Source: Natrinema thermotolerans DSM 11552
Lineage (GTDB): Archaea; Halobacteriota; Halobacteria; Halobacteriales; Natrialbaceae
NCBI GenBank assembly: GCA_000337115.1
Contig: AOIR01000056.1
Span: 4,104-68,103, forward strand
Direction of reading: 5' to 3'
DNA length: 64,000 nucleotides
The notes under the pieces are model-generated. The model worked only from the letters and a program-made list of their open reading frames with translations, was not told the DNA's origin and ran no database searches. Of the stretch, positions 42,246-54,135 are shown piece after piece (the stretch's first letter is position 1; each line of letters opens with the position of its first letter). The position numbers and the translations under genes are program-made.

Positions 42246-43079
42246 TCAGCGGCTCCGATCCTGCCGTCGTGCGAGCAGGCCGCCCGCGAGGACAGCGAGC
42301 GCGAGCAACGCAGTGCCGCCCGCGAAGCCCGGAACCGCTTCCGAGTTCGACGCCGAGTCATCGTCCGACCCGTCGGTCCCGCCGGCTGGCTCCTCGTTCG
42401 AGGCCACTCCGTCGCCCGCGTCGCTCCCGTCGTCCGGCGTGCCTGTCGATTCGGCCGCCGTCGCGTCCGTCTGAACGGTGAGCGTTCCCGGCTCCCGTGT
42501 CGGGTCGATCCGGCTGCCGCCGTCGGCGTCGAGCCGGGCGTCGGTCACCGCGAGCGCCGCCGTGCCGGGCTCCGTCCCGCTGACCGTGACCGTCGCGAGC
42601 GTGACGTCGCTCGCGCCGGGGGTGACCGCGTCGTCGAGATCGACGGCCTCGACGGTCACCGATTCCCCGTCGTCGCTCACGACGGGGTCGGTCGTCATCC
42701 GGTAGTCGTCGGGATAGCCGGCGTTCTCGACTGCCGCCGCGTCGCCCGACAGCTCGAGGGTGAGTTCGAAGCCGGCGAGCCCGTCGGGCGCGTCGGTGAG
42801 TACGATGCGGTGGACGGCGGTCCCACCGGGCTCGACCGTCGCGTTAGTGATGACGAGGGCATCCCCGGTCGACGCGGACGGGCCGCCGGTCGCCGTCGCG
42901 GGGGCCGTCCCCCCGTTCGCGGCCGCCGCAACTACCGACGATGGTGCGAACGCCGCCCCGATCGCGAGGGCGACGACGAGGGCGACGGCGGGCCGTCGCC
43001 ACCATCGTTGTCGGGGAGCCGACGCCGCGGTGTCGGCCCGGTCGGACGAACTCGTCGCAACGGTGTCGTCTGCGGCCAT
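42246..43079 (-). CDS. PGF-CTERM-anchored cohesin-like protein
   Basis: The 277-residue protein has a signal segment (PAVALVVALAIGAAFAPSSVVAA), one cohesin-like beta-sandwich (about 75-200: APDGLAGFELTLELSG, VVSDDGESVTVEAVDLDD, VTLATVTVSG) and a low-complexity stalk leading to VPGFAGGTALLALAVLAGGLLARRQ, a PGF-CTERM signal for archaeosortase anchoring. Its cohesin-like domain is homologous to the one in the neighbouring PhoX protein. It starts three bases after that gene ends, so they form one operon. It is probably the wall-side docking partner for dockerin-bearing proteins. Confidence 0.85.
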   Translation of the reverse strand: MAADDTVATSSSDRADTAASAPRQRWWRRPAVALVVALAIGAAFAPSSVVAAAANGGTAPATATGGPSASTGDALVITNATVEPGGTAVHRIVLTDAPDGLAGFELTLELSGDAAAVENAGYPDDYRMTTDPVVSDDGESVTVEAVDLDDAVTPGASDVTLATVTVSGTEPGTAALAVTDARLDADGGSRIDPTREPGTLTVQTDATAAESTGTPDDGSDAGDGVASNEEPAGGTDGSDDDSASNSEAVPGFAGGTALLALAVLAGGLLARRQDRSR

Positions 43080-43082
43080 CGA

Positions 43083-45716
43083 TTACAGCTCGTCGGACAG
43101 CTCGACGACGTCGTCGTAGTCGATGCGGCCGTTGTCGTTGAAGTCGTACGCGTCGACGGTCAACGACCCGGAGTCGTCCTCGATCTCCTCGAACAGGAGA
43201 ACGATATCGTCGTAGTCGAGCCGCTCGTTCCCGTTGACATCCTCGTAGCGACCGTCGCCGTCGGGATCGGTCGGCACTGCCCCGCTTCCGCCCGCGCCGC
43301 CGTCGATCGGCGGCGGCCCGGTGACCACGACGCCCGTGTGCGGCCGGGACTCGATCGGCGCGCCGTCGTCGTCGTCGAGCGAGTCGACCGTCACCGAGAT
43401 GTCGGTCGTCCCCATGCTCGTGCCCTCGAGTTCGACCGTCGCCACCGACACGTCGGTCGCGCCGGGCTGGATCTCCTCGTCGATATCGGCGAACCGGAAC
43501 TCGACCGTCGAGCCGTCGTCGCTGACGGTCGGGCCGGCGGTGAGTTCGAGCGCGTCGTGGTAGGTCGCGCCCGTGATCTCGGCGACGTCGGTGTGATCGA
43601 CCGAGACGGACACCGTCCCGCCGGCGAGTCCGTCCGGCACCGCGGACAGGGTCAGCTCGGCCGCGGCGGTCGCGTCCTGTCGTATCGCGACGGAGTCGAT
43701 GTGGACCGAGGTCGGCGGCTCGTAGACCCACAGCGCGTCGTTGGGGTACGACCGGCCGAAGCTGCCCTTGTCCTCACAGAGGAGGACGCGGCCGTCGTCG
43801 AGTACCATGACGTTGTCCACGTTGATCGGTGCGGCGTCGACGATCGACTCGCGGTCGGTCGCGTCGGGGCCGACGACCGCCGGCTCGAGCGTCGAGACGT
43901 CGTAGTCTTCCTCGAGTTCGGCCCGGTAGACGACGCCGCCGTCGACCCGGTCCATCCGTACGTCGCCCTCGTCGTCGCTCATGCCGTCGTTGAGTTCCGA
44001 GATGCCGAGATAGAGGAAGTCGCCGGGCTCGGCGTCGTCGAGCGAGTCGATCCCCTCGGCCTTGCGGAACTCGACGGTGGCACCGATCGCCTTCGCAGCG
44101 GCACGGGTCTCGAGGAACGGGATCCGACGAAGCGTCTCGTCGACGCCGTCGGGGCCGTACTCTTCGTACTGGCGGGCCCACTCGACGATCTCCGCGTCGG
44201 TGATGTAGTCCCGATTACCGTTGATCGCGACTTCCTCGTCGGCCGCCGCCAGCGCCGCCTCGAGGTCACTCTCCCAGTCGACGTCCGCGTGGGTCTCGAG
44301 GTAGTCGACCTGCGTGATGTCGTCGTAGTCGGCGATCCAGGACGCGACCTCGGCGTTGCTCGCAGTGCCGAGTTCGACCCACTCGATCTCGAGGTCGACC
44401 TCGGCCGGCGGGTTGTTCTTCGCGGCCTCGTCGTTCGTGACGCGGGCGGCGAACAGCGTGCCGCGGACGTCCATCCGGTCGTCGTAGCTGGGGATCGGTT
44501 CCTCGGCGACGAACTTGTAGAGCCCCTTGCTCGCGCCGTCGGAGGCGAGGTAGACGGTCCGCTCGTCGGGCATGAACTCGGGACACTCGAAGGCGGCCCG
44601 ACCCATGACGTAGTGTTTGACCGGGGTCGGCTCCGCGGCCGTCGGCTCGGTGACCTCGACGATGTGACCGTATCGGTAGCGGTTGGGGTACTCCTCGCCG
44701 ATCGGCTCGGTCGTGTTGGTGTCGCCGTCCTGATCGACCGGCTCGGCCCCGAGGTAGTAGGCCTGCATCTCGACGCCGCCCAGCGCCCAGGTCCCCTGCG
44801 GGTACCAGCTTTCCTCGAACAGGTCGCCGTCGTCGCCGAGTACGCCCGCGATCTCGGTCGGGTTCGGCCGGTTCCAGAACGCCGCCGCGCCCCGGACCCC
44901 CACGCCGCTTTCGGCCTCGATCACGTCGCCGACCGTCGCCGACCCGGACACGCGCGGGTGGCTGTAGTCCTCTTCGGACGACATCGGCGTCCCCCACGGA
45001 CTCAGGTCGCCGTAGCAGTTGATCCGCGTGCCGCCGATCTCGCGGAAGGACTCGCGGTTCTCGAGTTCCATCGCGTTCGCCGCGTCGGCGCTCCAGCCGT
45101 CCTCGCCGCGGCTGATCGGCGTCCGCGTGATACAGCCGGGGCTCGTCTCGTTGTTCGTGAAGAGGTATCCCTCGAGCCCCTCGTCGTCGGTCGGGACGAA
45201 GAAGTTCATGTCGGGGTTGTAGCCGACGTCGCCGTACCGACTCCCGACGAACTCGGTGACGTCGGTGCCGTCGGGCGTCTGGGGGTGGCCCCACCGTTCC
45301 GAACCACCGTTGATCTCCTCGCCCTCTTGGACGAGGATATCGTACTCGCCGCCGGCCACCTGGACCTGCTCTCGGGCCGCTTTCGAACGCGGTGGCTCGA
45401 GTTCGTCGAACTCGTCGTTGCGGCCGTTGAACTCGAACTGATGGCCGGCGAGGACGCCGACCGCTGCCGTGTCGTAGGGGGCGGCGTTTTCCCGGCTCGG
45501 GTGCTGGAGGCTGAACAGCACCTCGCCGTTCTCGAAGACGAACGGGCCGGTGACCTCGGCCCCGCGGGCCGTGGTCGCGAGTCGGTCGATGTCCCCTCGA
45601 ATCGTCGGCGCGCCCGGTGTGTCCGTATCGTCCGCGCTCACGGTCCCGATCGCACCGATACCGAGCGCCGCCGCCGCGGACGACGCCATCAGTTTCCGCC
45701 TGGTGAATTCGACCAT
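43083..45716 (-). CDS. Tat-exported PhoX-like protein with cohesin-like and dockerin domains
   Basis: The 877-residue protein has a Tat signal (EFTRRKLMASSAAAALGIGA), a PhoX/DUF839-type phosphatase body (about 35-660, with GPFVFENGEVLFSLQHPS, EYPNRYRYGHIVEVTEP and DGRVLLCEDKGSFG near the end), a cohesin-like domain (about 667-800), and a C-terminal dockerin (about 817-877) with two calcium loops (DVNGNERLDYDDIVLLF and DFNDNGRIDYDDVVELS). PhoX enzymes are Ca/Fe-dependent alkaline phosphatases; catalytic activity is inferred. ATG 45716 gives the Tat motif at residues 5-8. The companion cohesin gene follows three bases downstream. Confidence 0.85.
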   Translation of the reverse strand: MVEFTRRKLMASSAAAALGIGAIGTVSADDTDTPGAPTIRGDIDRLATTARGAEVTGPFVFENGEVLFSLQHPSRENAAPYDTAAVGVLAGHQFEFNGRNDEFDELEPPRSKAAREQVQVAGGEYDILVQEGEEINGGSERWGHPQTPDGTDVTEFVGSRYGDVGYNPDMNFFVPTDDEGLEGYLFTNNETSPGCITRTPISRGEDGWSADAANAMELENRESFREIGGTRINCYGDLSPWGTPMSSEEDYSHPRVSGSATVGDVIEAESGVGVRGAAAFWNRPNPTEIAGVLGDDGDLFEESWYPQGTWALGGVEMQAYYLGAEPVDQDGDTNTTEPIGEEYPNRYRYGHIVEVTEPTAAEPTPVKHYVMGRAAFECPEFMPDERTVYLASDGASKGLYKFVAEEPIPSYDDRMDVRGTLFAARVTNDEAAKNNPPAEVDLEIEWVELGTASNAEVASWIADYDDITQVDYLETHADVDWESDLEAALAAADEEVAINGNRDYITDAEIVEWARQYEEYGPDGVDETLRRIPFLETRAAAKAIGATVEFRKAEGIDSLDDAEPGDFLYLGISELNDGMSDDEGDVRMDRVDGGVVYRAELEEDYDVSTLEPAVVGPDATDRESIVDAAPINVDNVMVLDDGRVLLCEDKGSFGRSYPNDALWVYEPPTSVHIDSVAIRQDATAAAELTLSAVPDGLAGGTVSVSVDHTDVAEITGATYHDALELTAGPTVSDDGSTVEFRFADIDEEIQPGATDVSVATVELEGTSMGTTDISVTVDSLDDDDGAPIESRPHTGVVVTGPPPIDGGAGGSGAVPTDPDGDGRYEDVNGNERLDYDDIVLLFEEIEDDSGSLTVDAYDFNDNGRIDYDDVVELSDEL

Positions 45717-46013: not shown

Positions 46014-46427
46014 CTACTCGAGGCCGTGGGCGTCGGCACGGGAGCGGATCTCGTCGGCACGGTCGCGAACCCACGAGCAGTAGCGCTCGATCTCCTCGGG
46101 GGTCGTCCCGTAGAATGAGGCGACCCAGTTGACGTCGGCCCACGGGCAGGTCACGAGGTAGGCGGCGAGGGTGTCCTTGCCGGCCTGGACGACCTCCGGC
46201 GGGACGCCGCGGGTGCCGGTGTCTTCCTCGACGAAGCCGTTGACGTCGTAGTAGACGGCCCCGTAGAGCCGGGCCGTCTCGAGGTCGTCGAAGTCGATGG
46301 CGGTGTGGTTCGGTGCGACGAACCCATACCGTGGATCGCCGTCGGCCGACTCGGTTTCGACGATCCGGACGCCGAGGACGTACTCGTCGACGATCGACTC
46401 CGCCTGGGTGGTGGCTGACTGGTTCAT
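46014..46427 (-). CDS. Conserved small protein, unknown (137 aa)
   Basis: The 137-residue protein (MNQSATTQAESIVDEYVLG...) has an alpha/beta N-terminus (VLGVRIVETE, YGFVAPNHTAIDFDDLETARLYGAVYYDVNG) and a helical C-terminus (WADVNWVASFYGTTPEEIERYCSWVRDRADE), possibly a winged-helix-like element. I did not recognise its family. ATG 46427 is preferred over 46460 because a TATA element (about 46477-46483) sits about 50 bases upstream. Directly upstream on the same strand is the membrane kinase. Confidence 0.7.
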   Translation of the reverse strand: MNQSATTQAESIVDEYVLGVRIVETESADGDPRYGFVAPNHTAIDFDDLETARLYGAVYYDVNGFVEEDTGTRGVPPEVVQAGKDTLAAYLVTCPWADVNWVASFYGTTPEEIERYCSWVRDRADEIRSRADAHGLE

Positions 46428-46531
46428 GGCGTTCGGCTGCACGCAGGCGTGTCGACCCATTGAACCTTCGTATGTGCCGTATATAGCGCTCGGGATCGCT
46501 CCGTTCGGCTCCGGTCGGTTCGCGACGCGAC

Positions 46532-53349: not shown

Positions 53350-54135
53350 ATGACATCGGCCGACGGCGACCGCGTTCACGGACCGTCGAGCGACCCCCGC
53401 AGGGCCGTCGCCGTCATCGTCGTCGCCGTCGTCCTCTCACTCGCGTCGATCACCGCCGTTGCGAGCGTCGCCGCGATCGATCAGGTCGCCTTCGTCTCGC
53501 CGGACCGGACCGAACTCGAGGCCGACCCCGGCGAGACGGTCGAGATCACCGTCGCGCTCGAGAGTCGGGGCGGCCACGGCGGCGAGGGCGTCACGGCAGT
53601 CGCGTTGATCGCCCAGTACAATCCCGATTATCTCACCGTCACCGACATAGAGCGAGGGCCGTGGCTCGAGGGGGAGGATACCGAAGTCGAAACGCGGTCG
53701 ACGCTCGCCGACGGGGCCGGGACGGCGATCATAGAGCAGCGCCGCGAGCCGGCCGCCGGCGGGACGACCGGCTCGGGGACGATCGCGACGCTGACCGTCC
53801 GCGTCGCCGCGGACGCGCCGGCGGGCACGACGCCGATTTCGTTCGGTGAAAGCACCGTGTCGCTGACCGGCGACTATCCGCCGGCCGTCGTCGACGAGTC
53901 CGCAACCGTCGCCATCGCCGGCGGAAACGAGTCGCTCGGCGAGTTCGACCACCCCGATCCGGACGGCCTCGAGCGCGACGGCGAGTTCGACTCGAGCGGG
54001 GACGCGGAGGAAACCGACGCGGCCGCGAGCGACGGCGGCGCGCCGGTTCCGGGCATGACTGTCGGGGCCGCGCTCGCGGCCCTCGCGCTGGGAACGGCGG
54101 CTCTGGCGGTCGCCCGTGACCGTCGGCGCGGATAA
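53350..54135 (+). CDS. Exported cohesin-like protein with PGF-CTERM-type anchor
   Basis: The 261-residue protein has a signal helix (AVAVIVVAVVLSLASITAVAS), a cohesin-like domain (about 50-185: VSPDRTELEADPGETVEITVALESR, ALIAQYNPDYLTVTDIERG, GSGTIATLTVRVAADAPAG), an acidic stalk, and a C-terminal VPGMTVGAALAALALGTAALAVARDRRRG resembling PGF-CTERM with M for F. It is the third cohesin-like module in this window and lies in the nurA-herA interval; no dockerin partner is next to it. Confidence 0.8.
   Translation: MTSADGDRVHGPSSDPRRAVAVIVVAVVLSLASITAVASVAAIDQVAFVSPDRTELEADPGETVEITVALESRGGHGGEGVTAVALIAQYNPDYLTVTDIERGPWLEGEDTEVETRSTLADGAGTAIIEQRREPAAGGTTGSGTIATLTVRVAADAPAGTTPISFGESTVSLTGDYPPAVVDESATVAIAGGNESLGEFDHPDPDGLERDGEFDSSGDAEETDAAASDGGAPVPGMTVGAALAALALGTAALAVARDRRRG

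Follow-up and report, generated by a model that had tools for sequence, protein, structure and literature searches.

How would a haloarchaeon keep at its surface a phosphatase that is exported without an anchor of its own? The question is raised by two adjacent genes at 42246-45716, on the minus strand of a 64,000-nucleotide stretch of the genome of Natrinema thermotolerans DSM 11552 (contig AOIR01000056.1, positions 4,104 to 68,103), here called the window. One gene encodes a PhoX-like protein that ends in a cohesin-like module (cohA) and a dockerin; the other encodes a protein with a second cohesin-like module (cohB) and a PGF-type C-terminus. An earlier note on this DNA had described the pair, which is real and lies where it was placed, and had proposed that the phosphatase is held on the surface by a calcium-dependent, non-covalent dock. 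We consider it probable, at roughly three chances in four, that the predicted phosphatase is held at the surface through cohesin-dockerin binding by cohB, a putative archaeosortase-processed receptor. The predicted cohesin folds, the ligand-complete dockerin loops, and the joint gain and loss of dockerin and cohB support this interpretation.

Results

The catalytic domain belongs to the PhoX family, matching Pfam PF05787 at 87.7 bits against a cut-off of 24. Its residues C234, E249 and E377 align with C179, E194 and E273 of Pseudomonas PhoX (3zwu/4amf), which we take to be metal ligands, and none of the three varies across 95 haloarchaeal sequences. While the catalytic domain is homologous to that of bacterial PhoX, with the aligned Cys and Glu positions conserved, the haloarchaeal version differs at its C-terminus, where roughly one in two of the sampled orthologues continues into a cohA-dockerin tail. 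Three orthologues (L140, L141 and L142, from genomes G255, G043 and G249) have another C-terminal extension of about 100 amino acids (FHDPPADDPLN...FRDCCANTV...) and no cohA-dockerin tail. The open reading frame starts at the ATG at 45716, with a twin-arginine sequence (MVEFTRRKLM) that is kept in orthologues, and stops at 43083. This start and the PF05787 match agree with the description of a PhoX-like protein predicted to be exported by the twin-arginine translocation (Tat) pathway. A lipobox Cys within 45 amino acids of the Tat motif was found in none of the 76 PhoX N-termini with a recognised motif; PhoX itself is therefore unlike a lipoprotein, and its own lipid anchoring was rejected. 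The earlier note had allowed for docking either in addition to or instead of lipid anchoring. Docking in place of lipid anchoring of the predicted phosphatase is favoured. Any lipid anchor would belong to the cohB partner, whose tail would suit archaeosortase A.

The partner reading frame begins at 43079, three bases beyond the PhoX stop, and its module is homologous to cohA, as had been noted: a single pairwise comparison gave 36% identity over 125 amino acids (E=8e-20). Neither window module reaches the cut-off of Pfam Cohesin (PF00963), which gave no match for cohA or cohB, and comparison of the single window proteins with Pfam, NCBIfam and the PDB by sequence likewise found no cohesin match for them. 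Profile and fold searches were needed to establish their cohesin identity. Weak Pfam Cohesin matches occur in relatives (3 of 33 cohB and 5 of 43 cohA-dockerin sequences), and a profile (A2) run against PDB sequences gave a cohesin match, at most suggestive, at E=0.2. AlphaFold models built from alignments of 43 cohA-dockerin and 33 cohB relatives had predicted local distance difference test (pLDDT) scores of 90.1 and 92.2, respectively. With Foldseek against the PDB, all 50 matches listed for each model were cohesins, Archaeoglobus 2xdh among them, at a probability of 1.00, with E=2.2e-8 to cohesin 5n5p and 5.5e-8 to 2xdh for cohB, and values down to E=7.9e-11 for cohA. Both modules are predicted to adopt the cohesin beta-sandwich fold, as the earlier note had expected. 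They fall into two old groups with different conserved patches and did not arise by recent duplication; the tree does not reject a single clade for cohB.

The two-loop dockerin was also borne out. Although the window dockerin scores 16-21 bits against Pfam PF00404, under the 22.9 cut-off, PF00404 picks up 40 of the 43 sequences of the family when E values as high as 0.5 are admitted, the best being 1.5e-6. Profile A1 of the family in turn recovers solved dockerins, e.g. 1daq at E=1.9e-4. The dockerin has the duplicated F-hand arrangement of two 12-residue loops with ligands at positions 1, 3, 5, 9 and 12, and in sequence both loops are ligand-complete. In 82 sequences whose loops were located with a pattern that itself fixes some ligand positions, Asp is found at positions 1 and 12 of both loops without exception, positions 3 and 5 are mostly Asn (rarely Asp) and position 9 mostly Asp, so that D/N/N/D/D at 1, 3, 5, 9 and 12 is present in the two loops of more than 85%; one further sequence, with Gly at loop 2 position 1, falls outside the pattern. 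Type I dockerins carry a recognition pair at loop positions 10-11. Here 34 of the 82 sequences have Tyr-Asp at this place in each of the two loops, and the dockerin is therefore internally symmetric. Besides these two loops, a third Asp loop (loop 0, D-x-D-x-D-G-x-[YF]-E-D) lies directly before loop 1, which it overlaps; it is as well conserved as loops 1 and 2, with Asp at positions 1, 5 and 10 in 82/82 sequences. The model places helices at 173-182, 186-195 and 205-214; the whole-model fold search aligned mainly the cohesin part. The earlier note had called for further dockerin-bearing exported proteins to be sought in the genome. Profile searches found one dockerin of this family, that of PhoX, no others, and exactly two modules of cohA/cohB type.

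By inspection, the partner C-terminus (VPGFAGG...LLARRQDRSR) combines a PGF motif, a hydrophobic stretch and a basic end. Two orthologues (L038 and L084) match NCBIfam TIGR04126 below threshold, with E 8e-4 and 3e-3, and archaeosortase A (ArtA) is encoded in the N. thermotolerans genome (TIGR04125, 323 bits). The label of PGF-CTERM protein thus holds for the motif architecture and for the presence of ArtA, which may process this tail, but not for a TIGR04126 match. A dockerin-less PhoX (L103) ends in its own PGF-CTERM-like tail (TIGR04126 E=1.7e-3, sub-threshold), as if the anchor could be either fused to PhoX or docked. Three cohB-type proteins (L153, L155 and L156) have, by inspection, an N-terminal membrane helix and not a C-terminal tail.

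Of 292 Halobacteria genomes, sampled from the class, 118 have a match to the cohA-dockerin query; the PhoX loci were partly hand-picked from the match list. Among 94 distinct PhoX genes, 49 have a dockerin and an adjacent cohB, 5 a dockerin only and 40 neither; an adjacent cohB without a dockerin was found at none of the 94 (0/40 of the dockerin-less genes). A quick PhoX tree (LG+G4) provides six phylogenetically independent comparisons on well-supported branches, in which cohB tracks the dockerin in five to six and goes the opposite way in none (sign test, median p=0.031). The proposed surface dock has thus survived a test of joint gain and loss of dockerin and adjacent cohB. At one and the same place, L102 has the order up_small-PhoX-metY, and L042 and L148 have up_small-PhoX+dockerin-cohB-NCX-metY (NCX, sodium/calcium exchanger). 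This synteny shows a replacement at a single site, with dockerin plus cohB in one arrangement and neither in the other. Tandem dockerin-PhoX genes share a single neighbouring cohB region in L043, L088 and L138. Genome-level co-occurrence of the profiles A2 and A3 is partly circular, as A2 also detects cohA, and the contrast between PhoX loci was used instead. A premature stop near a cohB-type match in G142 was set aside, as it belongs to a different, non-PhoX locus.

The same tail is not confined to PhoX. It ends PhoD phosphatases (L053, L055, L056, L069, L087), 5'-nucleotidases (L057, L066), nuclease-like SNase/DUF4350 proteins (L050-L052) and a choice-of-anchor-I protein (L089); L050, L053, L057 and L089 were assigned by Pfam and the other carriers by similarity to these four. 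An adjacent cohB of their own accompanies the SNase/DUF4350 proteins L050-L052 and the 5'-nucleotidases L066, L068 and L158. The positions of the parts of the pair in the window are collected in Table 1, together with that of a canonical cohesin gene.

Table 1. Features of the PhoX-cohB locus and of the canonical cohesin gene, in window coordinates
Feature	Position	Strand	Evidence
PhoX gene, 877 amino acids (aa): Tat signal, PhoX, cohesin-like cohA, dockerin	43083..45716	-	Pfam PhoX 87.7 bits
Tat signal region MVEFTRRKLMASSAAAALGIGAIGTVSAD, without lipobox Cys	45630..45716	-	sequence; survey of 76 PhoX N-termini
PhoX catalytic domain	43722..45629	-	alignment to 3zwu/4amf
cohA, cohesin-like module fused to dockerin	43317..43712 (aa 669-800)	-	AlphaFold pLDDT mostly >90; Foldseek
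Dockerin	43086..43268 (aa 817-877)	-	profiles, loop ligands, predicted helices
Extra Asp loop (loop 0) DPDGDGRYEDVN, ahead of dockerin loops	43233..43268	-	loop alignment
Dockerin loop 1 DVNGNERLDYDD	43206..43241	-	loop alignment
Dockerin loop 2 DFNDNGRIDYDD	43110..43145	-	loop alignment
Partner gene, 277 aa: signal peptide, cohB, acidic linker, PGF-type C-terminal anchor	42246..43079	-	
cohB module	42462..42857	-	AlphaFold pLDDT 92.2; Foldseek
PGF-CTERM-like tail VPGFAGGTALLALAVLAGGLLARRQDRSR	42249..42335	-	sequence; orthologue matches to TIGR04126; ArtA in genome
Canonical Pfam cohesin protein, 261 aa, signal and C-terminal hydrophobic tail	53350..54135	+	PF00963 41.4 bits

Two neighbours complete the locus. 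A small protein without a Pfam match is encoded at 46014-46505 on the minus strand (EYVLGVRIVETES...VNWVASFYGTTPEEIERY). It is a PhoX companion without an assigned function: in almost every locus examined it lies next to PhoX, on either side and whether or not PhoX has a dockerin. A sodium/calcium exchanger (PF01699; 41092-42201, minus strand) lies 44 bp downstream of cohB, an order retained in several Natrinema loci and one Halovivax locus. The exchanger beside cohB is noteworthy, given that the dock would involve calcium loops. The canonical cohesin gene of Table 1, on which the earlier note was silent, sits just upstream of a HerA-like gene.

Larger sets of cohesin and dockerin proteins are encoded in other genomes. 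The L059 cluster of G264 encodes a GH5 cellulase with a dockerin, an 892-aa cohA-dockerin protein, a cohB protein, and a further Tat-exported protein, of 1040 aa, that combines five cohA/B-type modules with a dockerin. In G207, probably a Halovivax, Pfam recognises 14 cohesin stretches in a protein of 2089 aa (L145:6164-12430, minus strand), whose end is PGF-CTERM-like but below threshold. L145/L146 also encode a protein of 627 aa that has 3 cohesins, and several S8 subtilases. These subtilases have a C-terminal type I dockerin that scores above the threshold, and some have a cohesin as well. This cluster, which has a similar counterpart in G042 (L143-L144), has the look of an archaeal scaffold for proteases built in the manner of a cellulosome. 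The 2.7 Mb genome G002 encodes at least 20 dockerins of this family on proteins of about 400-1300 aa, as well as two canonical cohesins at C1:2197182-2198077.

Discussion

We propose that PhoX is exported folded by Tat and would carry no anchor itself. Its dockerin, folded around calcium, would plug into cohB of the neighbouring protein. The latter, an expected substrate of archaeosortase A, would be exported independently of PhoX and anchored in the envelope through its PGF-type C-terminus. PhoX would then be held non-covalently at the cell surface, near phosphate uptake systems, where it could serve phosphate scavenging. A phosphatase docked in this way could in principle be shared, exchanged, or released at low calcium. 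The second cohesin-fold module, cohA, is most likely a spacer or partner of the dockerin, similar to an X module, or else might be a further docking site.

Several observations weigh against this proposal. The PGF tail of the window partner has no match to NCBIfam TIGR04126, and the independent switches on the PhoX tree are few (n=6). Strands 3 and 8 are part of the dockerin-binding face in classical type I cohesins; cohB conserves them less well than cohA does, which leaves the docking face unconfirmed, and the per-strand comparison of cohA and cohB, being mixed in outcome, was not used as support. Finally, four of the five genomes with a dockerin-only PhoX (G194, G215, G276 and G254) have no cohB-type module except their own cohA; the fifth, G237, has other cohB-type modules elsewhere in the genome.

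These four genomes, in which cohA-dockerin occurs without another module of this type, could mean that the dockerin binds cohA, in its own chain or in another PhoX, to form a rigid tail or oligomers, and that cohB is a paralogue with another job. The almost invariable fusion of cohA to the dockerin within the family fits with such binding. However, dockerin proteins without cohA exist (L049, GH5 in L059, L061 and L065), the two modules belong to old, separate groups with different conserved patches, and binding to cohA leaves the joint gain and loss of cohB and dockerin unexplained; we regard it as unlikely. Docking to the canonical cohesin protein at 53350-54135 in place of cohB seems very improbable to us. 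This product is the sole protein in the genome above the Pfam Cohesin cut-off, and it has a signal and a hydrophobic C-terminus, but its gene is unlinked to PhoX and a Pfam cohesin is found in 16/16 genus genomes searched, four of which (G027, G095, G192 and G290) are without this dockerin family. This distribution argues against a dedicated receptor, and the protein was rejected as the partner. The dockerin-like module could also bind substrate or surface glycans, or simply confer calcium-dependent stability, and passages of two haloarchaeal papers (PMC10963439, PMC13260240) do take the type I dockerins found on glycoside hydrolases and on a lyase to be substrate-binding, though with no test of this role in those passages. 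The carriers of the tail, however, include phosphatases, nucleotidases and nuclease-like proteins, whose substrates are unrelated, and its presence goes together with that of a partner gene for a cohesin-fold protein; we give this explanation little credence. Docking of PhoX to cohB remains the reading that we prefer.

Archaeal cohesin-dockerin pairs are already known, e.g. in Archaeoglobus, and the earlier comparison with AF2375/AF2376 proved apt, as 2xdh is among the structural matches. Both pairs are non-cellulosomal and have dockerin and cohesin on neighbouring genes. The cohesin 2xdh shares its fold with cohB, of which it is a top structural match (template modelling score 0.71/0.73), with only 14% sequence identity. 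In contrast to the Archaeoglobus pair, the dockerin here is carried by an identifiable PhoX and is distinguished by its additional Asp loop and Tyr-Asp recognition-site pairs, while the protein that bears the partner cohesin ends in a PGF-type archaeosortase tail. A passage of PMC9705933, citing Voronov-Goldman 2011, describes the binding of the AF2376 cohesin to the AF2375 dockerin as strong and specific. With the type I cellulosome complex (1ohz) the pair has in common the cohesin fold and a duplicated F-hand dockerin with two calcium loops, and with the anchoring scaffoldins OlpA/OlpC (3ul4/4dh2) the putative single-cohesin surface anchor. It differs from the cellulosome in that anchoring would be by a PGF-type tail and not by S-layer homology (SLH) modules, and in that its cohesins are undetectable by Pfam. 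With one dockerin, only single-cohesin proteins and no multi-cohesin scaffoldin in this genome, it is not a cellulosome. In type II XDoc dyads, the dockerin is accompanied by a beta-sandwich X module that stands immediately ahead of it. By analogy cohA may correspond to such a module, although here the preceding module is itself a cohesin by predicted fold, homologous to the cohesin of the partner.

Anaerobic methanotrophic (ANME) archaea have many cohesin and dockerin proteins, with up to 5 cohesins per protein, according to passages of PMC9012536, which also cite earlier work to the effect that large scaffoldins are absent from archaea. These are likewise archaeal, non-cellulolytic systems with dockerin-bearing exported proteins; there, the dockerins are on ABC-transporter binding and S-layer proteins, and no PhoX/PhoD pair is described in those passages. 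The pairing of PhoX with a dockerin was not found in the literature searched, where most subscription journals were outside the scope, and cohesin, dockerin and haloarchaea appeared together there only in a biotechnology review.

A broader possibility, for which we see the chances as evenly balanced, is that of a widespread haloarchaeal plug-and-socket system, in which Pfam-invisible cohesins on membrane-tethered proteins would display exchangeable exoenzymes through a three-loop dockerin, with multi-cohesin, scaffold-like forms in some lineages. The exoenzymes would be PhoX, PhoD, 5'-nucleotidase and nuclease-like proteins, joined in some genomes by glycoside hydrolases. If so, dockerins called substrate-binding in recent papers would be anchors with an overlooked partner, and cohB offers for such haloarchaeal dockerins a candidate partner that Pfam had missed. 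Salt-adapted cohesin-dockerin parts of this kind might also be of use for protein display. Non-cellulosomal archaeal cohesins and dockerins would gain a concrete job, keeping phosphate-scavenging enzymes at the cell surface. The PhoX-cohB pair of Natrinema thermotolerans looks like a small archaeal counterpart of cellulosome docking, used in phosphate scavenging.

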